DNA of 38,281 nt from contig PWQX01000017.1 of NCBI GenBank assembly GCA_003556605.1, forward strand, positions 1-38,281, written 5' to 3'. How positions within the stretch are numbered: the first letter of the stretch is position 1; every line of letters begins with the position of its first letter. Under the pieces are notes generated by a model. It searched no databases, had not been told where the DNA came from, and saw only the letters and a program-made list of their open reading frames with translations. The stretch is from Spirochaetaceae bacterium (GTDB lineage: Bacteria > Spirochaetota > Spirochaetia > DSM-27196 > SLAA01). Position numbers and translations under genes: made by a program. Positions 12,078 through 29,955 of this stretch are shown here, in pieces.

Positions 12078-13352
12078 TTGGTGAGCGGAATTGACGATCT
12101 TCTCGATGACATTCCTATTCCACGAATGGTCAAGGTATCGCAGGTTTTTGACCGGCCGGTAGTCGGCGATGTGGGAGCTGAGGTCAAGCGGCGCTTGGCT
12201 GCGAAAGGCATATTGGGCTCAGTCCCTGCCGGGGCGCGAATCGCTGTAGCCGTGGGCAGCAGGGGCATTGCGAATCTTCCCGAAATAACACGAGTTGTCA
12301 TTCGAGAGCTGCGGCAAGCGGGCGCGGAGCCATTCATAATCCCTGCGATGGGGAGTCACGGTGGCGCCACCGCGGAAGGGCAGAAAGCCTTGTTGGAGCA
12401 CCTGGGTATACATGAGGAGTACACAAAGGCCCCTATTTGTTCAAGCATGGAAGTGGTCAAAGTGGCGGTTTCTCCGGAGTTTGGGATGCCGGTTTACACC
12501 GATGCTTTGGCTTTGGCAGCGGACGGGATAATCATAATCAATCGCATCAAGGCGCATCCTGCGTACGCCGGTAAGTTCGAGAGCGGGCTGGTCAAGATGG
12601 TGGCAATCGGTCTTGGCAAACAGAAGGAAGCCGAGATCTGTCACAACATCGGATCGGAAAGAATTGGCGAGTTCGTGGCTGACATTGGGTTGGAGATGCT
12701 GCGTCATATCAACCTCATAGGCGCTGTTGGAATGGTTGAGAATGCGTTCCATGAGACAGCCGGGGTAGAGGTGCTGAGGCCCGACGAGATTGAAACGCAG
12801 GAGCCGGCTCTCCTGGCGAGATCCAAGGATCTGGCAGCGCGTTTTTTTATCGATGAGTTCGAGGTGCTCATTATCGATGAGATCGGGAAAGAGATAAGCG
12901 GTGCAGGGTTTGATACCGGTATCGTGGGGCGTTACAGCTCGCCTTACCTGACAGGCGGGCCGAGAATAAGACGCGTAGCGGTATTAGACATAACCGAAAG
13001 ATCGAAAGGGTACGGTGGCGGACTTGGCATGGCTGACTTCACTACCCGCAGAGCGTTCAACAAGTTTGACGCAGAACAGACCTATCCGAATACATTGACT
13101 TCAACTTTCACGAACGGCGTGAAGATCCCTATGATTCTAAAAAACGACCGGCAAGCGGTCCAGGCGTGCATTAAAACCTGTAACCGGATGGATCTCAGAG
13201 ACGCCCGGGTTATCAGGATCAAGAATACACTGTGCATGGAGGAGATAGAGGTTTCGGAAAACCAACGCGAGGTTGTGCAGGCGCACCCGTGCATGCGGAT
13301 CATCGGAGACCCGCGAGAGATGCGTTTCGACAAAGAGGGAAACCTGTTCTAG
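12078..13352 (+). CDS. LarA-like protein (DUF2088, nickel-pincer nucleotide enzyme family)
   Basis: A 424-residue cytoplasmic protein resembling the lactate racemase LarA superfamily. LarA racemises 2-hydroxyacids with a nickel-pincer nucleotide bound through His108, His174, Lys184 and His200. Here H94 (in AMGSHGGAT) and H160 (in RIKAHPAYAG) have exactly the LarA spacing of 66. The covalent lysine position falls on G170, with K166 and K173 close by; H189 could serve as the fourth residue. Homologues act on lactate, malate, phenyllactate or gluconate epimers. With uxaC downstream, an epimerase for a sugar acid is likely, by inference. The start is TTG 12078 (aagga 10 bases upstream) or GTG 12081. 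It is the first gene of a three-gene unit. Confidence 0.8.
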   Translation: MVSGIDDLLDDIPIPRMVKVSQVFDRPVVGDVGAEVKRRLAAKGILGSVPAGARIAVAVGSRGIANLPEITRVVIRELRQAGAEPFIIPAMGSHGGATAEGQKALLEHLGIHEEYTKAPICSSMEVVKVAVSPEFGMPVYTDALALAADGIIIINRIKAHPAYAGKFESGLVKMVAIGLGKQKEAEICHNIGSERIGEFVADIGLEMLRHINLIGAVGMVENAFHETAGVEVLRPDEIETQEPALLARSKDLAARFFIDEFEVLIIDEIGKEISGAGFDTGIVGRYSSPYLTGGPRIRRVAVLDITERSKGYGGGLGMADFTTRRAFNKFDAEQTYPNTLTSTFTNGVKIPMILKNDRQAVQACIKTCNRMDLRDARVIRIKNTLCMEEIEVSENQREVVQAHPCMRIIGDPREMRFDKEGNLF

Positions 13353-13400
13353 CGGCGCACGCCGTGGAATGGCTCCCGCCCTGAATCTGAATCACTTTCA

Positions 13401-13406
13401 TGGAGG
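13401..13406 (+). promoter_or_regulatory. Ribosome-binding site deciding the uxaC start
   Basis: tggagg at 13401-13406 lies 8 bases before ATG 13415. The earlier in-frame ATG at 13400 overlaps this site, so 13415 is the functional start. Confidence 0.8.
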
Positions 13407-13414
13407 CTTTTGCT

Positions 13415-14830
13415 ATGGAATATTTCTTGACCGACGATTTTTTACTGCAGAACGAGCCTGCAAAGGTTCTGTTTCACGAGTACGCCGAAACGATGCCGAT
13501 CTTCGACTACCATAATCATCTTATACCCCGGCAGTTCGCTGAGGACACGAAATTCGAGAACTTGGCGAAAATATGGTTTGACGGTGATCATTACAAGTGG
13601 CGCCTTATGCGCGCTCTCGGGATCGATGAGAAGTATATCACCGGAGATTCAACGGACTATGAGAAGTATCAAGCGTGGGCGGAAACCGTACCCTATACCA
13701 TCGGCAACTGTTTCTACCACTGGACGCACATGGAACTGAAGAACCCTTTCGGTATCACCGGCAAGCTTTTCGGGCCCGATACCGCGCCCGAGATCTGGGA
13801 AACCACGAAGAAGCTGTTACAGCAGGACGACTTCTCCGTCTGCAGCATCGTCCGGCGAATGAATGTAAAGGTCATGTGTACCACCGATGACCCGGTAGAT
13901 TCACTCGATCAGCACGCGCTTATTCGTGAGCGCCGTGATGGTTTTGTGGTCGTTCCTACATTTCGGCCCGATAAGGCCTTAGCTGTTGAAAACCCCAAAG
14001 ACTGGAACGCCTACAGACTCAAGCTGGAAAACGCGGCCGACATGAAGGTCCGCAGCTTCGAGGATTTCATACATGCACTGGACCGGCGCCATGAGTTCTT
14101 CTATACCATGGGCGGACGGGCAACCGACCACGCCTTGCTCTTTCCCTATGCCGAGAAGTGCACCAAAGATGAGGCCGAAGCTATTTTCGCGAAGCTACTA
14201 AACAACGACACTCCGACCGAACAAGAGAACCTGCAATTCAAGACCGCTGCGTTGTATGAGGTCGGTCGAATGAACCATCGCCGCGGATGTGTCATGCAGT
14301 TGCATATGGGAGCGATGCGCAATACCAACACCCGGCGGTTCAAACAGTTAGGTCCCGACTCGGGCTTCAATTCCATGGCCGACTACGTTATCGCAGAGCC
14401 CCTCGCTAGATTTCTCGACCTTCTTGATCAGTCTGATGAGCTTCCCAAAACCGTGCTCTATACCCTGAATCAGAACCAGAATGATATTCTCGCGGCGATG
14501 ACCGGCAACTTCATGGATAGCAAAACGCGTGGGAAGGTGCAGTTTGGGGCTCCTTGGTGGTTCAACGATCAGAAAGACGGTATTGAGCGTCACTTGCTGT
14601 CCATCGCAAATATGGGCCTGATGTCGGTGTATATCGGGATGCTGACCGATTCACGCTGGGTGTTTTCGTTTATCCGACACGAATACTACCGGCGCATACT
14701 CTGCAATCTGATTGGAAGATGGATCGCGGATGGAGAGCTTCCGCGCGATATTCCGCATATCGGAAGCATTGTACAGGATATCTGTTACAACAATGCTGCA
14801 GACTTCTTCGGGATCGAGGTCGGCACGTAA
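13415..14830 (+). CDS. uxaC: Glucuronate (uronate) isomerase
   Basis: A 471-residue enzyme of the UxaC family (E. coli 470 residues) that isomerises D-glucuronate to D-fructuronate and D-galacturonate to D-tagaturonate, the entry step of hexuronate catabolism. Family signatures are the metal-binding FDYHNHLIPRQ near the N-terminus (H33, H35), CTTDDPVDSL, the block HMGAMRNTN, and near the C-terminus MLTDSRWVFSFIRHEYYRRILC. The start is set by tggagg, 8 bases upstream. It sits 62 bases after the LarA-like gene and 37 bases before the Gfo/Idh gene, on one probable transcript. Other hexuronate genes (uxuA/uxaA, kdgK, eda) are not in the window. Confidence 0.97.
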   Translation: MEYFLTDDFLLQNEPAKVLFHEYAETMPIFDYHNHLIPRQFAEDTKFENLAKIWFDGDHYKWRLMRALGIDEKYITGDSTDYEKYQAWAETVPYTIGNCFYHWTHMELKNPFGITGKLFGPDTAPEIWETTKKLLQQDDFSVCSIVRRMNVKVMCTTDDPVDSLDQHALIRERRDGFVVVPTFRPDKALAVENPKDWNAYRLKLENAADMKVRSFEDFIHALDRRHEFFYTMGGRATDHALLFPYAEKCTKDEAEAIFAKLLNNDTPTEQENLQFKTAALYEVGRMNHRRGCVMQLHMGAMRNTNTRRFKQLGPDSGFNSMADYVIAEPLARFLDLLDQSDELPKTVLYTLNQNQNDILAAMTGNFMDSKTRGKVQFGAPWWFNDQKDGIERHLLSIANMGLMSVYIGMLTDSRWVFSFIRHEYYRRILCNLIGRWIADGELPRDIPHIGSIVQDICYNNAADFFGIEVGT

Positions 14831-14867
14831 GTGTTCTATGTCGAATTGAAACAAGGAGATACACCCG

Positions 14868-15926
14868 ATGGCCACAGGCAGAGTCTACGGCGTTGCTCTG
14901 GCGGGAGCCGGAATGGTTTCCGGGGCTCACGCGGATGCGATTCTTGAACTTGACGTTGCGGATCTTAGAGTAGTCTATTCGCGTACTGAGAAACGAGCAA
15001 AGCCGTTCGCAGACAAATACAATGTTCCGTGGACGTGCGATTATGAGGAAATCCTCAAGCGGGATGACGTTGACATCGTTGACATTACAACAGCCCCGTG
15101 GCGCCACGCCGACATGGGGATTGCGGCTGCGAATGCGGGAAAACACGTAATAGTTGAAAAACCCATGGACGTTAGTCTTGAGAAGTGTGACAAGCTTATC
15201 GATGCGTGCCGCACGAACAACGTGGCGCTTTCGGTCATATTCCAGAATAGGTTCAAGAAGACAATGCGCCGCGTTAGGGATTACTGTCACAGCGGGGGAC
15301 TGGGAACCCTCCTGCATGCAAGCGCGTATGTCAAGTGGTTCCGTCCCCAAGAATACTATGACGGGGATGACTGGCGGGGCAAGATAACAACAGAGGGCGG
15401 CGGGGTAATATTTGGCCAGGCGGGGCATTCACTGGACCTTTTGCTGTGGCTGTTCGGACCGGTCAGCGAAGTGTATGCACGAATAGCGACAACACCCGTT
15501 CACAAGAATATTGATGTGGAGAATCTAGGAGTTGTAAACATACAGTTCAGGAATGGAGCTCTCGGCACGCTTGAAGCAGCTACGTCGCTCTATCCCGGCA
15601 CGCCGGAGCGGCTGGAGCTCCATGGCACTAGGGGTACGATTGTTATCGAGCAGGGAAGCATAAAGATGTGGGAAATAAAGGATCCCGGCCCGGAAGATGC
15701 ACCGGGAGACGTAGCGGAGGAAACGGGAACAGGCGCCCGTGATCCGATGGCTTTCCCCATAACATGGCATAAGCTCCAGATTGAGGATATGTGCCGGGCA
15801 ATAGATGAGAACAGAGAACCCGCGATAAACGGCAGAGAAGGACGCCGCCTTAACGAAATCTGCCATTACATCTATGAGTCGGCAAGAGGGAACAAGCCGG
15901 TCGAAATTCCGGAGAAGGCGGATTAA
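14868..15926 (+). CDS. Gfo/Idh/MocA-family oxidoreductase
   Basis: A 352-residue NAD(P)-dependent dehydrogenase. The Rossmann nucleotide loop is GAGMVSGA (13-20), the conserved EKP is at 97-99, and a C-terminal-domain block GQAGHSLDLLLW places H187 and D190 where catalytic His and Asp are usually found. The family oxidises or reduces hydroxyls of sugars and sugar acids. In this operon it could be the reductase or dehydrogenase acting on the product of UxaC or of the LarA-like enzyme, standing in for UxuB or UxaB, which belong to another family; this is inference. ATG 14868 has an aaggag site 9 bases upstream. No clear intrinsic terminator follows before the convergent gene ending at 16077. 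Confidence 0.9.
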   Translation: MATGRVYGVALAGAGMVSGAHADAILELDVADLRVVYSRTEKRAKPFADKYNVPWTCDYEEILKRDDVDIVDITTAPWRHADMGIAAANAGKHVIVEKPMDVSLEKCDKLIDACRTNNVALSVIFQNRFKKTMRRVRDYCHSGGLGTLLHASAYVKWFRPQEYYDGDDWRGKITTEGGGVIFGQAGHSLDLLLWLFGPVSEVYARIATTPVHKNIDVENLGVVNIQFRNGALGTLEAATSLYPGTPERLELHGTRGTIVIEQGSIKMWEIKDPGPEDAPGDVAEETGTGARDPMAFPITWHKLQIEDMCRAIDENREPAINGREGRRLNEICHYIYESARGNKPVEIPEKAD

Positions 15927-16647: not shown

Positions 16648-17658
16648 TCACCTCTGCAGGTTGTGCTCTACCGCGGCTTCACGGTACAGCCAACACGCTG
16701 CCCGCCGCCCGGCGCCGGTCTCAAAGTCCGGTGGATCGTGCCGCTCGCATAGCCCTTGAATTGCGAATGAACAGCGCGGATGGAAACGGCACCCTTCAGG
16801 CGGATGCAGCAAACTCGGCGGTTCCCCGGCAGGAACCTTGCGGTATTGGCCGGCGTTGGCAGCGTCGGGGTCGGGGATGGCGTCTACAAGCGCCTGGGTG
16901 TAGGGATGTTCAGGTCTCGCGAGAATCGCCTCTACCGGCCCGCGCTCAACGATCTTGGCTCCGTACATTATGAATATCCGTTCGCAGAAATAGCGAACCG
17001 TCGACAGGTCGTGGGTAATATATAACAGCGCCATCCGGTGCTTGCGCTGCAGTTGTCTGAGCAGCTGTAACACTTCAACCCGTACCGAGGCGTCGAGCAT
17101 ACTTACCGGTTCGTCGGCGACGATGAGCTGTGGGTCAAGGATTCTTGCGCGCGCGATTACCACGCGCTGCTGTTGTCCACCTGAGAGCTGATGGGGGAAC
17201 TTCTCAAGGAAGCTTGCAGCCGGTGTGAGTCTGATTTCCTCCAAGCGGCTGCGAATGCGTTGCTCCTGCTCGGCGCGGTCGCGAACACCGTTCACGAGCA
17301 GCGGTTCACGCAGTAGTTGCCGTACGTCCATGAACGGCGGCAGCGCGGCGTAAGGGTCCTGCTGCACATACCCCACCTGGCGGCGGTGCCACGCGAGTTT
17401 CCGGCGGTCGTAGCTGGACATGTCTACACCGTCGAACAGCACCGACCCTGCGGTGGGCTCGTAGAGCCCGAGAACGGTGCGCGCGAGAGTGCTCTTGCCG
17501 CATCCGCTTTCGCCGACGATCGCTACCGCCTCACCTCGCCGGATATGAAAGGTAACGCCGTCGACCGCCCGAACTTCACCGGCTCTCACGAAGCCGAACT
17601 TGCGCAGCTCAAAATGGGTTTGCAGATTTTCGGCCTGCAGCAGAACGTCATTGGGCAT
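16648..17658 (-). CDS. Oligopeptide/dipeptide-type ABC transporter ATPase (OppF/DppF-like)
   Basis: A 336-residue cytoplasmic ATPase. Walker A is GESGCGKST (about residues 49-57), the Q-loop region is YVQQDPYAALPP, the signature is LSGGQQQR, Walker B is LIVADEP, and the switch His is in YITHD. The C-terminal extension contains GCRFHPRCSFA, the Opp/Dpp-specific domain with clustered cysteines. It follows the other ATPase gene by 4 bases; a ggagaat site precedes ATG 17658. With its partner it would energise the permease pair encoded upstream. Substrate could be peptides, nickel or sugars; sequence alone does not decide. Confidence 0.95.
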   Translation of the reverse strand: MPNDVLLQAENLQTHFELRKFGFVRAGEVRAVDGVTFHIRRGEAVAIVGESGCGKSTLARTVLGLYEPTAGSVLFDGVDMSSYDRRKLAWHRRQVGYVQQDPYAALPPFMDVRQLLREPLLVNGVRDRAEQEQRIRSRLEEIRLTPAASFLEKFPHQLSGGQQQRVVIARARILDPQLIVADEPVSMLDASVRVEVLQLLRQLQRKHRMALLYITHDLSTVRYFCERIFIMYGAKIVERGPVEAILARPEHPYTQALVDAIPDPDAANAGQYRKVPAGEPPSLLHPPEGCRFHPRCSFAIQGLCERHDPPDFETGAGRRAACWLYREAAVEHNLQR

Positions 17659-17662
17659 TAGG

Positions 17663-18646
17663 CTATTCTCCGGCGCTACAGTCGTGCGCCGTCTGCCGTT
17701 GTGATTCGTACAGCCAGCACTTCGCTACTCGCCCGCATGCCGTACGGAACGGCGGCGGTTCGTGCGCGCAGCGGTCAAAACGCTCCGGACAGCGCGGAGC
17801 AAACCGACAGCCTTGGGGCGGGGCGAGAAGACTCGGCGGTTGTCCGGGTATGGCGTGCAGCTCTTTTGCTCCCCGTAACGTGGGCACACTCGACATCAGA
17901 AACGCGGAGTAGGGATGCAGCGCCTCGGCGAAGAACTGGGCCGCATCGGACTGTTCTACGATCTGTCCTGCGTACATGACCGCCACGCTATCGGCAATCT
18001 CGCTCGCAGCCGCAACGTCGTGGGTTATCAGCATAAACCTCGTCGCGACGCGTGCCTTAATGCCTTTCAGCGCATTCATAATGTTCGCTTGTGTGAGAAT
18101 ATCGAGCGCGCTGGTGGGCTCATCGAGAATGATGAGCTCGGGCTCGGTGATAAGCGCCATCGCAATTACGACTCGCTGGCGCATTCCCCCTGAAAGCTCA
18201 AAGGGGTAACGCCGTAAGAAATCCGGCGGGACATGCACTATGTCGAACGCTTCGCGCGCCTGTTCGGCCGCTTCAGCGTGTGTTGTCGCCCGCCGGTGCT
18301 CAAGCAGCGGCTCGGCGATCTGCTCGATTACCCGCGTCACCGGATTAAGGGAGTTCATCGCCGCCTGAGGAACAAGAGCGATTCGCTGCCAGCGAACCTG
18401 CGTGCGGAACGTCTCCTCGTCAAGCCGCATCAGATCATCCGAGTCAAGCAATACTTTTCCTCCGTAGCGTGCAACATTCGGCGGTAGCAGCCGCAGTATC
18501 GCCTTGGTAAGACTGCTCTTTCCGCAACCACTTTCGCCGAGTACAGCCACGCTGCGCCGCGGCTCCACGGTGAGATCGACCCCGTCAACCGCCCGTACGA
18601 TTCCTTCACGAGCTTTGAAATGCAGGACGAGCTTCTCGGTCCGCAA
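17663..18646 (-). CDS. Oligopeptide/dipeptide-type ABC transporter ATPase (OppD/DppD-like)
   Basis: A 327-residue ATPase. Walker A is GESGCGKSS, followed by VPQAAMNSLNPV in the Q-loop region (typical of OppD), the signature LSGGMRQR, Walker B LIILDEP with TSALD, and LITHD as the switch. The C-terminal Opp-type domain includes GCRFAPRCPERFDRC. The start is TTG 18646: agagg of the upstream permease end lies 6 bases before it, and the permease stop is only 3 bases away, so translation is coupled. It pairs with the DppF-like ATPase to form the nucleotide-binding dimer. Confidence 0.95.
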   Translation of the reverse strand: MRTEKLVLHFKAREGIVRAVDGVDLTVEPRRSVAVLGESGCGKSSLTKAILRLLPPNVARYGGKVLLDSDDLMRLDEETFRTQVRWQRIALVPQAAMNSLNPVTRVIEQIAEPLLEHRRATTHAEAAEQAREAFDIVHVPPDFLRRYPFELSGGMRQRVVIAMALITEPELIILDEPTSALDILTQANIMNALKGIKARVATRFMLITHDVAAASEIADSVAVMYAGQIVEQSDAAQFFAEALHPYSAFLMSSVPTLRGAKELHAIPGQPPSLLAPPQGCRFAPRCPERFDRCAHEPPPFRTACGRVAKCWLYESQRQTAHDCSAGE

Positions 18647-18649
18647 AAC

Positions 18650-19996
18650 CTACCTCTCCCTCAAACGGGGGTTAAAGACACGGTCTAGTGCAAAGCCGAA
18701 CATCGCGAAGCCCAAGCCGGTGAGGATCAACAGAGAGCTCGGCAATAGAACCCAGTAATACTGCCCGCGGTACAGCGCACCGTTTCGATAGGCATCTTCG
18801 AGCACTTTACCCCAGGTTGGTAACACCGGGTCACCTAGACCTATCATGGCAAGCGTCGCTTCCAGGAACACGAACGAGGGTATGACGGTCACGAATGAAG
18901 GAATGAGCGTGGGGAGCACTTTCGGGATCATGTATCGAAAGATGATCCGAGTGTTGCCGGCGCCGTAGGCGCGCGCGGCTTCAATGTACGCCAGTTCCCT
19001 GATCTGCAGGAACATCGCACGATAGGTCTTAATCCCGGCGCTGAAGATTCCAAACAGAATGACGACGCCGAGCATGACCCAAATGCTGCGCGAATACAGC
19101 GTGCCGACCATCACGAGAACCGGCAGCAGCGGCAATACCATGTTTACTTCGGTAACCCGTTGAATTGCCGCGTCGACCTTACCGCGGAACCACACGCCGA
19201 CTGCGGCGAGAACGAGCGTTGTGACGGTACTGCCGACTGCTGCGAGAATGCCGAAGGCGAGCGCGGGCCGAGTTCCAAACAAAAGCGCTACCGCGATATC
19301 GCGGCGTATGTGATCGGTGCCCGCAAGGCCGTGCACTTGTCCGTAACGCACGAAGCGCGCTTCAATATCAGAGTCAGGCTCGAAGCTGACTCCCTCAATC
19401 TCCACTCGGTAGGTACCGTGCAATACCTGCGGGACTCCCTCGGCGGAAGCAGGATCCGCAAAGAGACCCACACGCGGCGCAACATCGCCGAGCTCCCGCC
19501 GGAGGCCGCGCAGCTGATCGATGCGAATGCTCTGTTCGCGATCGACCCCGCCGTCACTGAGGCTGAAACTTCGGCCGTCGGGCGTAACCCAACGTACGCT
19601 CGCAAACGGTCTTCTCGATTCGTACTCGGAGCGCAGAAAGAGGTTGAGCTCGCGCGGGAACGCATCGTAGTGATAGTCGAACTCAAAAGCGATCTCGATT
19701 TCGTTGTGCTCCTCGCTAATCTCGCGGTAGCGCTTCAGCTCCGGATGTTCGGCGCTGTCGAGTACAAGGGTTCTGGGCAGATTCACCCACGGGAGGGCGT
19801 TGTACCAGACCGGGCGCGCGTTGCGCGGCGAGTCACGCCGGGCGATACCCGCACGCCACAATTGTACCGCGTGCGACTGCGGCACCATGATTAGCGAATA
19901 AAGCGCCAGGGCGAGGAATAACGCAATCAGCACAAGTCCGGCGATTGCCGAGGGGTAACGCTTGAGCTCTCGAGCGAAGCTGATGAAGCGGTTCAT
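18650..19996 (-). CDS. DppC/OppC-type ABC permease with large extracytoplasmic insert
   Basis: A 448-residue permease; ordinary DppC/OppC proteins are about 280-310. After one membrane segment (about 17-37) comes a hydrophilic stretch of about 185 residues (40-225) before the family motif GTDHIRRD (226-233, usually GTDxxGRD). The remaining five segments are normal, and the EAA loop EAARAYGAGNTRIIFRYMIP (339-358) that docks the ATPases is intact. The insert has beta-strand-like segments such as IEIAFEFDY and YRVEIEGVSF, so it is probably a folded periplasmic domain. The glycine of the GRD motif is replaced by arginine. The gene overlaps the DppB-type gene by 4 bases (ATGA), which implies coupled synthesis. 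Confidence 0.92.
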   Translation of the reverse strand: MNRFISFARELKRYPSAIAGLVLIALFLALALYSLIMVPQSHAVQLWRAGIARRDSPRNARPVWYNALPWVNLPRTLVLDSAEHPELKRYREISEEHNEIEIAFEFDYHYDAFPRELNLFLRSEYESRRPFASVRWVTPDGRSFSLSDGGVDREQSIRIDQLRGLRRELGDVAPRVGLFADPASAEGVPQVLHGTYRVEIEGVSFEPDSDIEARFVRYGQVHGLAGTDHIRRDIAVALLFGTRPALAFGILAAVGSTVTTLVLAAVGVWFRGKVDAAIQRVTEVNMVLPLLPVLVMVGTLYSRSIWVMLGVVILFGIFSAGIKTYRAMFLQIRELAYIEAARAYGAGNTRIIFRYMIPKVLPTLIPSFVTVIPSFVFLEATLAMIGLGDPVLPTWGKVLEDAYRNGALYRGQYYWVLLPSSLLILTGLGFAMFGFALDRVFNPRLRER

Positions 19997-21144
19997 GAGC
20001 GGTTCCTACCAAGCCCCACCTTAATTCGTGGGTCTACCAGCGCGTAAACGAAATCGAGCACAAATACGGTAATTCCCAGCAGGTACGCGTAGACAATGAC
20101 GGTGCCGAGAATAACCGGTGTATCATAGAGGTTGATCGCTTCCACTGTGACGGTACCAATGCCGGGCCAGTTGAACACGCGTTCAAGGACGATCGCGCCG
20201 GTCCAGAGCCCGATGATGCTCAGCATGAACGATGTGATGATGGTAGGTAACGTTGGACGCAAGACATAGCGGCGCTCAATTGCCGCGGAAGTCAGTCCCT
20301 TGGCCTTGGCGAGCTCTACGTAGTCCTCGCTGGAGTAAATCAGAAAGAAAGTGCGCCAGGAATATACCGCCAGGAAGAGCGCGCTGATGATGATCGCCGC
20401 GACGGGAAGCAATAAGTGGCGCATCACACTCAGGGCGTACAATAACGGATTCGCGGGCGCGGGGGCGGCTACCATGCCACCGAACGGTAGCCAACCTAGC
20501 AAGGCGGCAAAAATCAGAATCAGAAATATTCCGTAAAACCAGCTCGGCGCGGCCGAGGTCGGGGCCAAGGCCACGAACAGGCGGTCGAGCTTGCTGCCGT
20601 AGCGCCGCGAGAGGTAAAGGGCTACAAAAATAGCAATACCGAACAGGCCTAACTCGGCGGTTGCAAATAGCAACAACGTCGGCGCGAGCCGTTCTAAGAT
20701 GATAAGACGTACGAGGCGGGAACCGGAATCGCTTGTCATGTCATGTGAGCGCCCGAGGTTCAGCGTCAGCGCGTTGCCGAGATAGCGAAAACTGCGAATC
20801 ATGAACGGCTGGTCGAGCCCGCGGCGTGTAGTTTCGCGATCAACCATCGCTTCCACTAATTCGGCCCTGCGCTCGCTCGGTAACTCCATCAGCTCTTCAT
20901 CGGCGCCGACCCGCATCACGATCCGTTCCTGGATCTGCGCGTAGCGAATTTCGTCGACGTAGCCGCCCATATTGGCGATCAGTACGGCGATGTAGGCCGC
21001 AACGGCGACCGTTGCCGCAATCGCGAACAGACGCCCGAGGATATAGCGGACGACGCGCGCGGAGGAATCGCCTTTGCCGGTAGGCGAGGTACTGTCCGAG
21101 CTCGAGGGAGGCGCAGGCTGCTCTGTTACGTGGTGTGTATGCAT
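19993..21144 (-). CDS. DppB/OppB-type ABC permease
   Basis: A 383-residue permease with a Ser/Pro/Thr-rich cytoplasmic N-terminus (about 30 residues), a first membrane segment at about 35-58, an external loop longer than usual (about 60-130) ending in GLDQPFMIRSFRYLGNALTLNLGRS, and five further segments. The ATPase-docking loop reads YVELAKAKGLTSAAIERRYVL, and the C-terminal block FNWPGIGTVTVEAI is the family signature. Together with the DppC-type protein it forms the channel. It starts 7 bases after the binding-protein stop; ATG 21144 has an aaagg site. Confidence 0.93.
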   Translation of the reverse strand: MHTHHVTEQPAPPSSSDSTSPTGKGDSSARVVRYILGRLFAIAATVAVAAYIAVLIANMGGYVDEIRYAQIQERIVMRVGADEELMELPSERRAELVEAMVDRETTRRGLDQPFMIRSFRYLGNALTLNLGRSHDMTSDSGSRLVRLIILERLAPTLLLFATAELGLFGIAIFVALYLSRRYGSKLDRLFVALAPTSAAPSWFYGIFLILIFAALLGWLPFGGMVAAPAPANPLLYALSVMRHLLLPVAAIIISALFLAVYSWRTFFLIYSSEDYVELAKAKGLTSAAIERRYVLRPTLPTIITSFMLSIIGLWTGAIVLERVFNWPGIGTVTVEAINLYDTPVILGTVIVYAYLLGITVFVLDFVYALVDPRIKVGLGRNRS

Positions 21145-21151
21145 TGGCCTT

Positions 21152-23641
21152 TTAGGGGATGACCACGAACTCTCGCGACTCGAAGGTAGGGATACTGACG
21201 ATCAAGGGCACGACAACGGCCTCGATTCTGGTAGCCCCGGTTTGAAGCTCGTTGGTCAGCTCGGCGTCGAGTATTGCTCTGTAAATTCCATCCCCCGTGT
21301 GCTCGGCGCCGGTTATGTATTGGAGAGCGCCGGTTGCGTCGAATACGAGATACTGCACCGTATCGATGTCATCGGCATCATATGGGCGCCCGTCGTACGA
21401 CACTTCAATCTCGAATACGGCTTCCTCGCCCGGCACCACGGAGGAAGGTCCGTGTATATCCACTTGGGCGATCGCCGGTTCGTCGAAGCGTTCCCATTTT
21501 TCAAACGGGTCAGGGAAGTGCTCAAAGCGTTCGAGCACGACCGTGCCTTCTACCGGCCGGACTCCGGTGAGCTTGAACGGCCCAATGCCCACCCAGAGGT
21601 GGTTCATCCTTTCATACCAGGCGGCAAGATTCTCCCAGCGCTCGGCAACCTCGTTGTCATCAACGTACTCAGCCAATACCGGTTCATAAGGCAGGTAGTT
21701 CTCCGCTTGCGCTTGTTCAAGCTCTTCGGCAAGGATTTTGAGGCTGGGTCCGCTTACGTAGCTCGCCCATTCCACTTCAAGCCGGTCGGCTTTGTCGGCG
21801 CTGAAGGCAAGCTGCTCGTTGATCTCAGCACGGATGCCGAGCGCGAGCTGGTGCCACGCTCCGGCTCCGTGTGCGTAGGTGGGGAAAAAGGTCGACACAT
21901 TCGCCTCGGCGTCGAGGAAGTAGTTGTCGGCGTAGTATTCGATCGTAAGCGGGTTCTCTGAGGTAATCCGAATACCGCGGAAGTTCCGGATGAAGCTTTC
22001 GTAACCCGGCAGTTGTGCTGCGTCGAACAGTGTGCTTTCTTCTTTGGCGCGGTCGAAGGTCAAGATTATGCCGAGCACGATGTCTGCGGTTGAAATCTGC
22101 GAACCGTCGTGCCACATAATTTCGAAGAAATCCTCAGGATACGTTACGATACTACGCCGCCGGGCAGTCATCCCTTCGGGGTGTTCCTCGCCGACGGTTG
22201 TGAACTCCTGGGCGACCGGGTCCCACCCGGCCCACGCATCTTCAGGCACTTCTATTCGTTCGGCGAACTCGAGGGTCACCCAGTCATGCGTTCGGGTGAC
22301 CGGAAGCCCGTCCTGTACGGTCACTTCAGCCGATTCAATGCGCTGCGGCCATGGAAGTCCGGTAAAGGGATCACGCTTAGTGCCCTCGTCGGAGGTGGCA
22401 CGGATGATCATCTGGTCATACACCCAATTGCTGCCGTCAAGCGGATTCCACGGCTCGGTGAGTATACCGGGGGTTCCAAGCCGGAACTCGCCGCCGCCGT
22501 CCTTCTGCAAGGTGAGCGCCCACAGCCGTGCGCCGCTCACCCCGCCGCCGAGATCGGCAGCAACGCTTACACTCGGCTGCCGCGGTGTGGCGACAACCTG
22601 GTCGACCAGCCACACGCGCGCGGAATCCTGGAGCGCGAGGCGCAACGCCTCGGCAAACAGCTCGTTGCGTTCGGCGAGCGTGCTGTACTCCCGCTGGGCC
22701 AGCCGTTGGGAGTGCGCGTCGAACTCAGGGCTTGGCTCGTAGGCCTGATACAGCGGCTGAGGGAGACTGCGCGGCGTGTAGTAGAAGTCAAAGGCGGCGG
22801 CCTGGTCACGGTTGACCAGCGTAGCAATCCAACCGCCGGTGTACAAGTGAAAACGACCCTCCGACGGATGGGAGCCGATCCACAAGGCAGAAGCTTCATC
22901 TGCAGTGCGGTACAAGCGGTCCACCTTAAATCCGATGTCTTCCAGCCGGTTGGCGACATAATCGCCCACTTCGCGGCGCTCGTCTTCGGTTCTGATCACA
23001 AATATGAGTTCAACCGGCTCGTCTTCGTAACGCCAAACACCGTCTTTACGCTCGGCGCCGAGCCGCTCCATCTGTTCGGTTATGATTTCTTCGGCCCGTT
23101 GGGGGTCGTAGGCGTATTCCATCTCGAGCGCACGCGCCTCACCTGCTACCCGGGCGTAATCGGGAAAGGCCCCCGAAATGGGGTGGTAGCGCGGTTTAGC
23201 TAAGCCGCCGTAGATTTCCTCGGCGATGTAGTCGCGGTCCACCAGTAGATTCATCGCTTCGCGAATGCGCGGCTCTGAGAAGGGGTTGAGCTCGCCGGTT
23301 CCCTCGAATTCCGGGCCCGAGGGATTGAAGGTTAGTTCCGCCGATTGCCCGAACGATTCTTCAAACGCCAACCCCTGTGCCTGGATCTCCTCGAGTATGT
23401 CCGGGCTCGAGACTCCCCCGGCGTACATATCGAAATCGCCGGCCGCCAAGCGGGCGATTGCGCTCGAAGTGTCGGTCTCTTGCAGCACCACGATCTCATC
23501 GATCCAGGAGTAGACCGTTTCGGGGGGCGCGGCTTCTTCTACCGTTTCTTCGCGACGCTCACACGCTGCAGCCGCCAATACGACCATCGTCACCGAGGCA
23601 ATGACGAGAGTAAATTGGTTTGTGAAACTGATTCCACGCAC
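21152..23641 (-). CDS. Family-5 solute-binding lipoprotein of the ABC transporter, apparently circularly permuted, with C-terminal beta domain
   Basis: An 829-residue exported protein; ordinary family-5 binding proteins are about 500-600. GTG 23641 has a ggagg site 6 bases upstream. A signal peptide ends in a lipobox before Cys27. Residues 46-76 (IDEIVVL to DFDMYAGG), 122-146 (SEPRIREAMNLLVDRDYI) and 176-191 match what is normally the second half of the fold. Residues 386-530 (ILTEPWNPLDGSNWVYD, WHDGSQISTADIV) and 684-729 (GIGPFKLTGV to the FEHFPDP stretch) match the normal first half. The two halves are thus in reversed order. Residues about 730-829 look like an Ig-type beta domain (EAVFEIEVSYDG). 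It heads the ABC operon. The ligand is unknown; peptides are the default guess. Confidence 0.9.
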   Translation of the reverse strand: MRGISFTNQFTLVIASVTMVVLAAAACERREETVEEAAPPETVYSWIDEIVVLQETDTSSAIARLAAGDFDMYAGGVSSPDILEEIQAQGLAFEESFGQSAELTFNPSGPEFEGTGELNPFSEPRIREAMNLLVDRDYIAEEIYGGLAKPRYHPISGAFPDYARVAGEARALEMEYAYDPQRAEEIITEQMERLGAERKDGVWRYEDEPVELIFVIRTEDERREVGDYVANRLEDIGFKVDRLYRTADEASALWIGSHPSEGRFHLYTGGWIATLVNRDQAAAFDFYYTPRSLPQPLYQAYEPSPEFDAHSQRLAQREYSTLAERNELFAEALRLALQDSARVWLVDQVVATPRQPSVSVAADLGGGVSGARLWALTLQKDGGGEFRLGTPGILTEPWNPLDGSNWVYDQMIIRATSDEGTKRDPFTGLPWPQRIESAEVTVQDGLPVTRTHDWVTLEFAERIEVPEDAWAGWDPVAQEFTTVGEEHPEGMTARRRSIVTYPEDFFEIMWHDGSQISTADIVLGIILTFDRAKEESTLFDAAQLPGYESFIRNFRGIRITSENPLTIEYYADNYFLDAEANVSTFFPTYAHGAGAWHQLALGIRAEINEQLAFSADKADRLEVEWASYVSGPSLKILAEELEQAQAENYLPYEPVLAEYVDDNEVAERWENLAAWYERMNHLWVGIGPFKLTGVRPVEGTVVLERFEHFPDPFEKWERFDEPAIAQVDIHGPSSVVPGEEAVFEIEVSYDGRPYDADDIDTVQYLVFDATGALQYITGAEHTGDGIYRAILDAELTNELQTGATRIEAVVVPLIVSIPTFESREFVVIP

Positions 23642-23824: not shown

Positions 23825-25501
23825 TCAACAGGTGAGAGCGCCCTCGCTTGCGCTGCCGACAAGCTGCGCGTATTTGTACAACGCCCCGCTGGTGTAGCGC
23901 AGCTCAGGCCGGCGCCATGCCTCGCGGCGGCGTTCAAGCTCCTCGTCTGCAACGTCGAGGTGCAGCAGTTTGGCGGTACTGTCGATTGTAACGAGATCGC
24001 CCTCCTGAACCAGCGCGAGCGGTCCGCCGTCAAAAGCCTCCGGTGCAACATGTCCAACGACCATGCCGTGGCTTCCGCCCGAAAAGCGGCCGTCGGTAAT
24101 CAGCGCGACCTCTTTGGCTAAGCCTGCTCCGGCAATCGCCGCAGTCGGCGACAGCATCTCGCGCATACCCGGCCCGCCGCGCGGACCCTCGTAGCGGATT
24201 ACGACCACGTCGCCGGAGCGCACGTGGTTGTTCATGATGGCGTCAAGCGCCTGCTCCTCCGCCTCGAACACGCGCGCCGGACCGGAGTGCACCACCTCTT
24301 CCATTCCCGCGGACTTCAGAACGGCGCCGTGGGGAGAGAGGTTCCCATGCAGTATCATAAACGGCCCGTTGCGCTTGACCGGGTTGTCGAAGTCGTGGAT
24401 TACGTCCTGGCCGCTGAGCCGTACCCGCACGCCGGCGAGATTCTCGGCCACGGTCTTGCCGGTGACCGTCATGCAGTCCCCGTGCAGCATGCCGTTGTCG
24501 AGCAGCATACGCATCACCATCTTTACGCCGCCCACCCGATAGAGATCGTCCATCACGTAGCGCCCCGCCGGCTTCATATCGCAGAGCACCGGGGTAGTGT
24601 CGGAGAAGGTGTTGAAGTCTTCAATGGTCAGCGGGACATCCGCTTCGCGCGCGAGCGCAAGCAGGTGCAGCACGGCGTTAGTGGAGCCGCCGAGCGCCAT
24701 CGTGACCCGGATTGCATTTTCAAAAGACTTGCGAGTGAGGAAGTCCTTCGGTTTGCGATCGCTGCGGATTGCGGCGTCCAGAGCCTCGGCTGAGCGGAGC
24801 ATGATGTCGGTGCGCGCCGGTTCCACCGCGGGCACCGAGGCGTTGTCGGTGACACCGATACCGAGCGCTTCCATCGCGGAGGCCATAGTATTCGCGGTGT
24901 ACATCCCTCCGCATGCGCCGGGGCCGGGGCATGCGGCACACTCAATGGCGTGGCGCTCGGCTTCTTCGATCCTGCCGGAGCTGTATGCCCCAACTGCCTC
25001 AAACGCCGATACAATATCCACCGGCCGGCCGTTGTGGTCGCCGGGTTTGATGGAACCGCCGTACACGAACACGCTCGGCACGTTGAGACGTAACATACCC
25101 ATCACTGTGCCCGGGATTGTCTTGTCGCACCCACCGATGCCGAGCAGCGCATCCATTTGGTGGCCGCGCGCATCGAGCTCAATAATGTCGGCGATAGTGT
25201 CGCGGCTGATGAGTGAGCACTTCATACCTTCGTGTCCCATTGCCTGTCCGTCGGTGATGACGAAGGTGTGAAAGGTAACCGGCATGGAGCCGAGCTCTCT
25301 TAGCCGGGCCTTAGAGTGCTCGGCGATCTCCGCGAGATGGACGTTGCAGGGCGAGACGTCGCTGTCGGCGCAGGCGATGCCCACCAGCGGTTTGTTGAAG
25401 TCTTCGTCCGTAAAGCCGACCGCGCGGAACATAGCACGGTTGGCGGTGCGTTGTACACCTGAGGTCATCACGCGACTGCGGGTGTTGTATCCGTCGCTCA
25501 T
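23825..25501 (-). CDS. ilvD: Dihydroxy-acid dehydratase
   Basis: A 558-residue Fe-S enzyme that dehydrates 2,3-dihydroxy-3-methylbutanoate (or -pentanoate) to the 2-oxo acids leading to valine, leucine and isoleucine. The cluster cysteines sit in their family contexts: C52 (SDVSPCNVH), C125 (GGCDKT) and C197 ([12 protein letters not shown]). The C-terminal block [16 protein letters not shown] with PEA is intact and the length is usual. The start ATG 25501 overlaps the leuD stop (ATGA). It is the last gene of the branched-chain operon, with no strong intrinsic terminator seen in the 180 bases before the next gene. Confidence 0.98.
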
Positions 25502-26130
25502 TGTGCCCCTGCCGGTTCAAAATTGCGGGTGTAGGGTAAGCGCTGCGCAGTCTTCTTGGTCTCTTCTAGATTATTGAGCATTGCCGAGGTAGAGTCCCAC
25601 GCCCCGGAGAGCAAGGCGTTACGGTAGGCCGGCGAGAGGTCAAAGTGATAGCGATGCTCACCGATCGAAAGCACCTCGTCTCTGATGTACACCGTAATCG
25701 GTGTGGCGGGCTCCGCCTCTACCGCTTGCATGATCTGTTCGATATCGTGGTGCGGAAGCGAGATCGCCGGGATGCCCATGGCAATACAGTTTCCGGCAAA
25801 GATTTCTCCGAACGACTCTCCGATAACGGCGCGGATCCCGAAGCGAGCGAGCGCTTGGGGCGCGTGCTCACGCGAGGAGCCGCAGCCGAAGTTGCTGTTG
25901 ACGATCAGTATGGAGCCGCCCCGGAAACGCGAGTCATTCAGCGGATGTTGCTTGGTTGGACTGCCGTCGGTATCGTAGCGGTGGTCGTAGAATGCAAACT
26001 CCCCGAGACCTTCGAACGTAACCCGTTTCATGAAGCGCGCCGGGATGATCTGATCGGTGTCGATGTCGTTGCCTCGCAGAGGAATACCGCGCCCCTCTAC
26101 ATACTGGATTGCCGCGTGTTGCTCCTGCAT
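25498..26130 (-). CDS. leuD: 3-isopropylmalate dehydratase small subunit
   Basis: A 210-residue swivel domain partner of LeuC in the isomerisation of 2-isopropylmalate to 3-isopropylmalate (leucine synthesis). Signatures are [14 protein letters not shown] near the N-terminus, [17 protein letters not shown] and [18 protein letters not shown]; length about 200 is usual. An aaggagg site lies about 6 bases before ATG 26130 and overlaps the leuC stop region. It overlaps ilvD by 4 bases at its other end. Confidence 0.98.
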
Positions 26131-26141
26131 GCCGACCCTCC

Positions 26142-27542
26142 TTACAGGTGTTCCCGGATGTCTACCACGCTACCGTTGACTGCCGCGGCGGCGACCATGG
26201 TGGGGCTCATCAGCACGGTTCGGCCTGTCGGTGAGCCCTGGCGACCGATGAAGTTTCGATTGGACGAGCTTGCGCACAGCTGTCGTCCTTCAAGCTTGTC
26301 GGGGTTCATTGCGAGGCACATGGAACAACCTGCGGCGCGCCACTCGAATCCAGCTTCGGTGAAGATCCCGGGCAAGCCTTCGGCCTCGGCCTGTTTGGCC
26401 ACCTGCTTGGAACCCGGCACCACGAACGCCCGGACTGAGGAAGCTACGCGCTTACCCTGCAGGTAGTGCGCCGCCTCGCGCAGATCGCTGATACGGGCGT
26501 TGGTGCACGAACCGAGAAACGCGATGTCTATCGGCTTGCCCTTGATCGTATCACCTTCTCGAAACCCCATGTGTGCATAAGCCTTCTCGGCAACCTCACG
26601 GTGGTCACGGTCGATCTTGGAAACGCGCGGTGTCCGCTCCGTGATTCCAACGGCCTGACCGGGGTTGATACCCCAGGTGACCATAGGTTCCAGCTCGCCC
26701 GCATTCAGTTCAAATACGTCGTCGTACTCGGCGTCTTCGGGCGATGCAATGCTGTTCCAATACTCCTTTGCATGCTCGAAGTGTTCAGCCGCCGGCGCGT
26801 AACGCCGGCCTTTCATGTACTCGTAGGTTGTCTCGTCGGGACTGACATAGCCCACTCGTGCTCCGCCCTCGATGCTCATGTTGCAGATCGTCATTCGCTC
26901 CTCCATCGAGAGCTTCCGGATTGCCTCGCCGGAATACTCGTACGCGTAACCGATACCGCCGTGCACACCGAGTGAGGCGATGATCTTTAGGATAATGTCT
27001 TTGGCGTATACCCCGTGCGAGAGTGATCCGCGCACGTCGATCTTCCGCACCCTAGGCCGGCTTATCGCCATACACTGCGTTGCCAGGACGTCACGGATCT
27101 GCGATGTGCCGATCCCAAAGCCGATTGAACCAAAGGCACCGTGGGTTGAGGTATGCGAATCCCCGCAGGCGATTGTCATGCCCGGCTGGGTCAATCCCAG
27201 CTCGGGACCGATAATGTGCACGATCCCCTGCATATCGGTGCTTAGACCGAAAAATTCGATACCGTGTTCGGCGGTGTTGCGCTCGATCGCTTGCATCATT
27301 TCCTCGGCAAGCGCGTCTGCGAAGGGTCTTTCTTGCGAGGCGGTCGGGACAATGTGGTCAACGGTCGCAAAGGTGCGCTCGGGGTACAGAACCTTGAGAC
27401 CGCGCTCCCTCAGCATGTCGAACGCTTGCGGTGAGGTTACCTCGTGTATCAAGTGCAACCCAATGAACAGCTGATCCTGACCGGACTCCAGCTGTTTTAC
27501 CTTGTGCAGATCCCAGACCCTGTTAAACAGATTCTCGGCCAT
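26142..27542 (-). CDS. leuC: 3-isopropylmalate dehydratase large subunit
   Basis: A 466-residue aconitase-family enzyme subunit carrying the [4Fe-4S] cluster. Ligands C346 ([11 protein letters not shown]) and C406/C409 ([10 protein letters not shown]) are present, as is the substrate loop [13 protein letters not shown] (126-138). Forms the isopropylmalate isomerase with LeuD, encoded 11 bases downstream. ATG 27542 has a taggag site. leuA and leuB, needed for the full leucine branch, are not in the window. Confidence 0.98.
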
Positions 27543-27584
27543 GTGTACTCCTACTCATGATGTCTGCATTGAACCGCCGTGTAC

Positions 27585-28163
27585 TCACGGCGTCATCTGC
27601 TCACCCCGAGCCATCAGAACCTTACCGGTGCGCATGATTTCCAGCACCCCGTAGCGTTCGAACACCCGGTTGGCGCCGTCGAGTTTCTCGGACTCGCCGG
27701 TGATCTGCAGTGTAATACTATGCTCGCTAATGTCCAAGACCTCGCAGTTCAGCGAATGCGCGAGCTGCAGCACGTCCTTACGGACTTCCGGCTCGCAGTT
27801 GACCTTGATCAGCGCGAGCTCACGCTGCAGGATGTTCTCGCCGGTGCGGTCGGAGGCGTGCACCACGTCGATCAGTTTGTTGAGCTGCTTCAAGATCTGG
27901 TCCAGTACGTCTTTCGCGCCGGTCGCGACGATATTCATCGTCGAATACGCCGGATTGGTGGAGGGGGATACCACGAGGCTGTCAATGTTGTATCCCCGGC
28001 GAGCAAACACCAGCGCGATGCGGATCAGCACGCCGGGCTTATTGCTGACGAACAGGCTGATCGTGTGCTTTTCTTCGGCTGAACCGTTATTCTGAAGCTC
28101 GGGCGCCTTTGCGCTGGTGGGAACCGTACCCGTTCCATTCCCGTTTCCGTTTGTGCTCTTCAT
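27585..28163 (-). CDS. ilvN: Acetolactate synthase regulatory (small) subunit
   Basis: A 192-residue subunit that binds branched-chain amino acids and confers feedback inhibition on IlvB. An Asn/Gly/Thr-rich N-terminal tail of about 30 residues precedes an ACT domain (about 33-105: HTISLFVSNKPGVLIRIALVFARRGY region) and the C-terminal IlvN domain (REVALIKV-like strand, SEKLDGANRVFERYGVLEIMRTGK). The tail is longer than in most homologues. It starts 3 bases after the ilvB stop, with gggag as ribosome-binding site, so it is coupled to ilvB. Confidence 0.95.
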   Translation of the reverse strand: MKSTNGNGNGTGTVPTSAKAPELQNNGSAEEKHTISLFVSNKPGVLIRIALVFARRGYNIDSLVVSPSTNPAYSTMNIVATGAKDVLDQILKQLNKLIDVVHASDRTGENILQRELALIKVNCEPEVRKDVLQLAHSLNCEVLDISEHSITLQITGESEKLDGANRVFERYGVLEIMRTGKVLMARGEQMTP

Positions 28164-28166
28164 GAC

Positions 28167-29909
28167 TTACGTGCTCCCCACTGGTCTATCGAGTTTGATT
28201 TTCGCGCTCGTGTCGTTCTGCGACTTCAGCGCCGGTTCGAGAATCATGTCGCCCATCGAGGCGCCGGCCGGAATCATAGGAAAGACGTTATCTTCCTTCT
28301 CAACCTCGACATCAATGATGCAAGGCCCATCGTTGTACGCTAAGGCTGCTGAGACCAGCCGACGAACATCGGCACTGCGGCGAATGCGAATACCTTTGCA
28401 GCCGTAGGCCTCGCCTAGCTTCACAAAATCCGGATTGCCTTCGAGATCGACTCCCGACAGCCGGTTTTCGTAGAACAGGTTCTGCCACTGGCGCACCATG
28501 CCGAGATAGGCGTTGTTGATGATCACGATCTTGATCGGCAGTTTGTGTATTACCGCGGTGGACAGCTCGGCCTGCGTCATCTGGAAACCGCCGTCCCCTA
28601 CTATCGCGATTACCGTTGACTCGGGGTGGGCGAACTGAGCGCCAATCGCCGCCGGGAACCCAAATCCCATGGTTCCTGCACCCCCGGAGGACAGCCAGTG
28701 AAATCGCTCGTTGGTGAGGAAGTACTGCGCTGCCCACATCTGGTGCTGGCCCACGTCGGTGGTTAAGTAGGCTTTCCCGTTCGTTTGGTTATAGAACTCA
28801 TCAATGACATGTTGGGCCTTGAGCTTCCCGCTCTTGCGGAATTTCAATGGGTGCAGCCTTTTCCACTCCTCAATCTGCGCAAGCCATTCGTGCGTGTCGC
28901 CACGTTCGGCAATCGCAGCGAGCTCCTCAACCACATTCTTGGCATCTCCGTGTATGCAGCAGTCCATCCTGAGTGTTTTGTGAAACTCGGATGCATCGAT
29001 GTCGATGTGGACCTTTTTGGCGTTCACGCAGAACTTCTTGGGATTACCGACGATGCGGTCGTCCCAGCGTGAGCCGATAGAGACGATCAAATCGCAGGCG
29101 TCCACCGCTTTGTTGGCGTAGGCCGTACCGTGCATACCCAACATCCCCATGCTCAAAGGATGCGTTTCCGGGAAACAGCCTTTTCCAAGCAAGGTGTTGG
29201 TCACCGGGATCTGCAGTTTCTCGGCGAGGTAAGTCACCGCCTTGTTGGCGCCCGAGATCACCGCCCCCTGCCCAACGAGCAACACCGGCCTGCGCGCCTC
29301 TTGCAGCATTCGCGCGGCTTTCTCAATGTCCTCGCGCGCTCCGTCCTGCGGCACGTCATAGCCGGGCAGATGGAACTCTTCGTTATAGTTGGGGTCAATC
29401 ATCGCACTCGACACGTCCTTCGGGATGTCGATCAGTACCGGTCCGGGACGCCCGGTTCGTGCGATATGGAAGGCCTCGCGCACAACACGCGGAATGTCTA
29501 TCGCATCTTTGAGCAGGTACGAATGTTTGATAACCGGATACGAAATGCCGGAAACATCGGCTTCCTGGAAGGCATCTAGACCTAGGTTCCAGGTAGTCTG
29601 CTGGCCGCACAGTATCACCATTGGTACAGAGTCCATGTGCGCGGTGAGCAGTCCGGTTATCGTGTTGGTAGCGCCCGGACCTGAGGTTACCAGTACGACC
29701 CCTGGGCGCCCGGTTGCACGCGCGAAGCCGTCGGCCATATGAGTGGCACCCTGCTCATGGCGGCTAAGGATGAGCTTCACCGGAGAATCAACCAGCGCGT
29801 CGAAAATTGGAATCGCGGCTCCCCCGGGAAGACCGAAAATGTACTCAACGCCCTGCTGCTGAACCAGGTCGACAATCACCTCAGCACCAGTCTTTTTGGT
29901 ATGTTCCAT
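28167..29909 (-). CDS. ilvB: Acetolactate synthase catalytic (large) subunit
   Basis: A 580-residue thiamine-diphosphate enzyme that condenses two pyruvates, or pyruvate and 2-oxobutyrate: the first common step to valine, leucine and isoleucine. Catalytic Glu52 is in [13 protein letters not shown], the FAD/pyrimidine region follows, and the ThDP motif begins [12 protein letters not shown] and ends VIINN. ggagg lies 8 bases before ATG 29909; a TTG two codons earlier is too close to that site, so ATG is chosen. It heads ilvB-ilvN-leuC-leuD-ilvD. No attenuator peptide was seen in the short leader. Confidence 0.97.
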
Positions 29910-29955
29910 ATACAAAGCCTCCCTTCGTGATGCTTTGACCGTTCAAGATTGCGCC

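Follow-up and report, generated by a model that had tools for sequence, protein, structure and literature searches.

The gene at positions 21152-23641 on the minus strand of contig PWQX01000017.1, assembled from a Spirochaetaceae genome, raises the question whether a family-5 solute-binding protein can carry its two halves in exchanged order and still serve an ABC importer. An earlier note on the window, i.e. the whole 38,281-nucleotide stretch of DNA that was analysed, had read the product as a lipoprotein of this family in which two complete, unduplicated halves are circularly permuted and followed by an Ig-like domain. From our point of view, the product is very probably the binding protein of a functional Opp/Dpp-type ABC importer with a circularly permuted family-5 (cluster C) fold, as judged from profile and gene-order comparisons.

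The reading frame, whose coordinates and strand had been given correctly, begins with a GTG codon and encodes 829 residues; its identification rests on Pfam and on 65 homologues of the same order. A putative signal peptide with a possible lipobox (residues 1-27, VLAAAAC; 23561..23641), recognised in the sequence, abuts the canonical C-terminal part, which is placed first (part B, residues 44-359; 22565..23512) and is delimited by positions 148-352 of the Pfam profile and by residues 331-721 of the solved structure 7fi3. The gap between the matched segments (residues 360-383; 22493..22564, with approximate limits) is the short linker that unites the ancestral C and N termini. The canonical N-terminal part follows (part A, residues 384-724; 21470..22492; genome-search match 21470-22477), and its family profile matches residues 5-307 of 7fi3 at an E-value of 3.8e-52. 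Part A contains the motifs WHDG..STAD and GIGPF.. and ends at an NPNYW-like break point, behind which the C-terminal domain (residues 725-829; 21155..21469) fills the remainder of the chain. The limits of the two halves proposed earlier, 46-191 and 386-729, were somewhat narrow, as the first half extends to about residue 359.

SBP_bac_5 is the sole Pfam match of the protein at E <= 1, no Type I (cluster B) homology being found, and its score of 96.8 bits lies above the curated cut-off of 32.4. Residues 47-277 align with positions 148-352 of the 368-position profile and the C half with positions 28-153, so that the two matches stand in reversed model order, as the earlier note had predicted, and not in the canonical N-to-C order. 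Taken alone, the N half reaches 4.7e-23 and the C half only 0.0012, under the curated cut-off, and since the latter match is weak, family profiles were made from relatives. The full permuted-family profile matches 7fi3 at an E-value of 1.4e-113 in three swapped, non-overlapping segments (model 366-694 to chain residues 4-307, 13-287 to 331-603 and 298-357 to 662-721), which span most of residues 4-721 without loss or duplication of either canonical part and place the break between residues 307 and 331. Tandem duplication is ruled out by this single, non-overlapping coverage. When the window sequence is re-ordered, a single collinear match to 7fi3 runs across the old junction (query 121-574 to chain 104-573) and the NCBIfam Opp4A match lengthens across the restored junction, while in alternate profile-profile alignments with linear spirochaete proteins the 'GPF...' end falls just upstream of the N-half alignment. 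Completeness of both halves and their permuted order were hence confirmed, and neither a single collinear HMM match of the native sequence nor a second copy of the fold was seen.

The reference chain 7fi3, described as a binding protein of an 'ABC-type dipeptide/oligopeptide transport system' and presumably Thermococcus OppA, is homologous to the window protein over almost its whole length, including long inserts in the N-terminal lobe, but has the conventional order and lacks the Ig-like domain. By homology to this structure, the window protein would be expected to adopt the two-lobed family-5 fold. A full-length AF2 model built from two sequences, namely the window protein and a 51% identical protein of another Spirochaetaceae MAG (L043, the sole relative from the contig scan), had a pLDDT of 35.5, too low to bear on the fold.

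To what extent the arrangement is inherited was addressed with full-length relatives from Spirochaetota genome searches (74% to ~20% identity), in which the domain order was scored with separate profiles for A, B and the terminal domain I. The order B-A-I was found in 65 distinct Spirochaetota frames and B-A in three truncated ones, whereas the order A-B occurred in none of the permuted-family relatives found in these genomes with the three profiles; the protein therefore belongs to a family across one phylum and is not a one-off. All 24 aligned relatives match SBP_bac_5, and the break point, a crossover after 'NPNYW', is common to all permuted proteins. Ordinary spirochaete family-5 proteins match the B profile only. 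Linear proteins carrying this A half did not turn up in the sampled Spirochaetota genomes, with no matches between ~1e-20 and 1e-5. The window genome itself carries about nine ordinary family-5 genes besides the permuted one, and another genome has two permuted genes about 6 kb apart (G229:C1:1754054-1756549 and 1762716-1765211). No permuted relative was detected in the viral contigs or plasmids searched. The family may be wider than Spirochaetota; Chloroflexota proteins with similar C-terminal sequences represent a lead only.

At the N-terminus, most of the homologues whose start is intact have a signal-like sequence directly ahead of part B, which leaves no room for a hidden missing upstream half. 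A lipobox-like cysteine was found with a loose pattern in 39 of the 65 homologues. For the window protein the lipobox assumed by the earlier note is no more than plausible from its sequence, and the cysteine is missing in several close orthologues (L016, L017, L018), and lipid anchoring is consequently not conserved. At the opposite end, the proposed Ig-like beta domain of about 100 residues was borne out: residues 725-829 are modelled by AF2 as a beta sandwich with a pLDDT of 83.5, and the nearest folds of this model are of the Ig/macroglobulin type (VIA-align Z up to 11.9 over 89-101 residues at ~2 A). The domain is present in every one of the 65 full-length permuted homologues.

Regarding the history of the family, it could be imagined that the permuted order arose more than once, or that it is ancestral in the subfamily and that the linear form of the 7fi3 type was re-linearised. 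This possibility comes from a tree of both halves in which the linear 7fi3 is nested among the permuted proteins, beside the largest of their three deep groups, with an SH-aLRT of 99. However, the branch of 7fi3 is very long, a tree constrained to keep the permuted proteins in a single clade is worse by only 3.9 log-likelihood units (p-AU 0.36) and is not rejected, and the single common break point together with the Ig-like domain favours one event. We consider a repeated or ancestral permutation unlikely, and a permutation that occurred once the more probable history of the family.

The genomic context bears on the function of the permuted protein. In the window the Opp/Dpp-type importer set is complete, with the binding protein, two permeases and two oligo_HPY ATPases, all on the minus strand: an OppB-type permease (19993..21144; PF00528, 4.3e-27), a 448-residue OppC-type permease (18650..19996; PF00528, 2.3e-16; Opp4C, 2.7e-35), an OppD-type ATPase (17663..18646) and an OppF-type ATPase (16648..17658), the latter two each with ABC_tran and oligo_HPY matches. 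Of 20 loci fetched from other genomes, most show the same one-strand order, SBP-OppB-OppC-OppD-OppF. OppC in permuted-SBP loci is about 450-480 residues long because of an extra segment of ~170 residues that follows the first transmembrane helix and precedes the permease domain; in the window, sequence comparison places it at about residues 40-208 (19373..19879). The insert is probably periplasmic and gave no Pfam or PDB match beyond its TM1 part. OppB of the window likewise has extra sequence (about residues 60-105) after its first transmembrane helix and ahead of the conserved domain, as well as a long N-terminal tail. On the same strand, genes for branched-chain amino acids (23825-29915), comprising the large and small subunits of acetolactate synthase, two aconitase-family subunits (likely leuCD) and ilvD, lead into the transporter operon, and a plus-strand group at 12078-15926 (a lactate-racemase-like protein, glucuronate isomerase UxaC and a GFO/IDH/MocA oxidoreductase) suggests uronate use.

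The permuted receptor and the enlarged OppC occur together well beyond the window. In a sample of 393 genomes spread evenly over Spirochaetota, the A half was found in 54 and the OppC insert in 53, and all 53 insert genomes carry the A half, i.e. the insert is present in 53 of 54 permuted-SBP genomes versus 0 of 339 others (Fisher 3e-65, a value that ignores shared ancestry, as the counts are not phylogenetically independent). In the low-GC genus g98, probably Brachyspira, the permuted gene has no operon around it. The genes for OppB and the long OppC form a pair at another site without an adjoining permuted SBP gene, in G193 for instance about 1.46 Mb away from the permuted gene. That both are kept even though they are unlinked supports their partnership. 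A linear SBP gene lies within a few kb of the OppB/long-OppC pair in G193 and G211, but the three further loci that were inspected showed no such gene. The sole exception to the co-occurrence is G090, which carries the permuted protein without a long OppC and as such speaks against its role in a functional importer; here the orphan gene lies next to, and is transcribed divergently from, an ordinary linear SBP gene and an ordinary Opp operon (L194 5620-10176).

Such orphan genes, in G090 and in g98, together with the Ig-like domain could also indicate that a former binding fold now acts as a surface or adhesive protein with no transporter role. This is very unlikely, as most of the fetched loci have the gene at the head of a complete OppBCDF operon and g98 retains the OppB/long-OppC pair elsewhere. 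It is highly improbable, too, that two different half proteins were fused instead of one protein being permuted. The C half is only weakly matched by the generic family-5 profile (0.0012), and a comparable origin was considered for Treponema pallidum MglB-2 by its authors (PMC4990184), but here the same chain, 7fi3, is the best match of both halves, in complementary, non-overlapping stretches that make up most of residues 4-721. Given the exact and complete swap relative to 7fi3, the collinear match after un-swapping, the common break point and the finding that all 65 homologues have this order and none the opposite, a true circular permutation, as proposed in the earlier note, is the sole reading that fits. 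Lastly, although the window genome is fragmented (296 contigs), an assembly artefact or chance motif resemblance is vanishingly improbable and can be ruled out by the 65 distinct proteins of the same order, some of them in single-contig genomes (G250, G328), and by E-values down to the 1.4e-113 of the 7fi3 match. Since the swap recurs in 65 related proteins and is accompanied by an enlarged OppC, it represents a real inherited redesign and not an error.

Starting from the circularly permuted importer receptor, one can picture how the system may work. The chain is opened at the crossover by which, in linear relatives, the 'GPF...NPNYW' strand leads into the '.LDEIVF...' strand, and the protein would still fold into a two-lobed trap as these do. 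It would be exported, here perhaps with a lipid anchor, and capture a ligand, possibly peptide-like, in the periplasm; by analogy to established Opp biology, the ligand would then be passed to OppB/OppC and imported with ATP-derived energy from OppD/OppF. Opening at the inter-lobe crossover might shift the N-terminal end or anchor to the hinge side, and the Ig-like domain might come to lie near the hinge and perhaps contact the OppC insert. One could speculate, with some doubt, that this is a distinct importer class (a 'cluster Cc', named after 'Bc'), in which a permuted family-5 receptor with an Ig-like cap is mechanically matched to the enlarged periplasmic domain of OppC, and in which the permutation repositions anchor and hinge and thereby allows docking of the Ig-like domain onto OppC.

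Compared to the family-5 (cluster C) proteins OppA, DppA, NikA and AppA, the window protein shares the SBP_bac_5 match and the Opp-type operon but has swapped halves, an added Ig-like domain and a length of 829 residues, whereas the linear proteins encountered in this analysis have ~500-650. Similarly, OppB, OppC, OppD and OppF of the window are all recognisable by the Opp4/Opp3 models of NCBIfam, but their scores are far under the equivalog cut-offs and OppC carries the insert after TM1. The earlier note knew of no well-described example of such a permutation. For family 5, a literature search that covered few subscription papers likewise returned no report of a permuted protein, but among binding proteins in general there is a precedent. 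T. pallidum MglB-2 (Tp0684), a sugar-binding lipoprotein of Type I/cluster B, is circularly permuted, and its authors proposed the designation 'Type Ic / Cluster Bc' (PMC4990184). It, too, is an ABC binding lipoprotein of a spirochaete, and its permuted topology requires an additional crossover close to the hinge, but it differs in fold class and in the strands moved, and the text consulted mentions no Ig-like domain (PMC4990184).

Overall, the permuted family-5 proteins expose an annotation gap, as profile tools report well only half of each of them and the swap consequently goes unnoticed. The spirochaete periplasm and its lipoprotein tethering are unusual, and together with MglB-2 of T. pallidum the family raises the question why spirochaetes, of all bacteria, should harbour permuted binding proteins of two classes that are unrelated to each other. 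A large two-lobed receptor that is permuted phylum-wide and kept together with a modified permease represents a natural experiment on topology, tethering and docking in ABC import.
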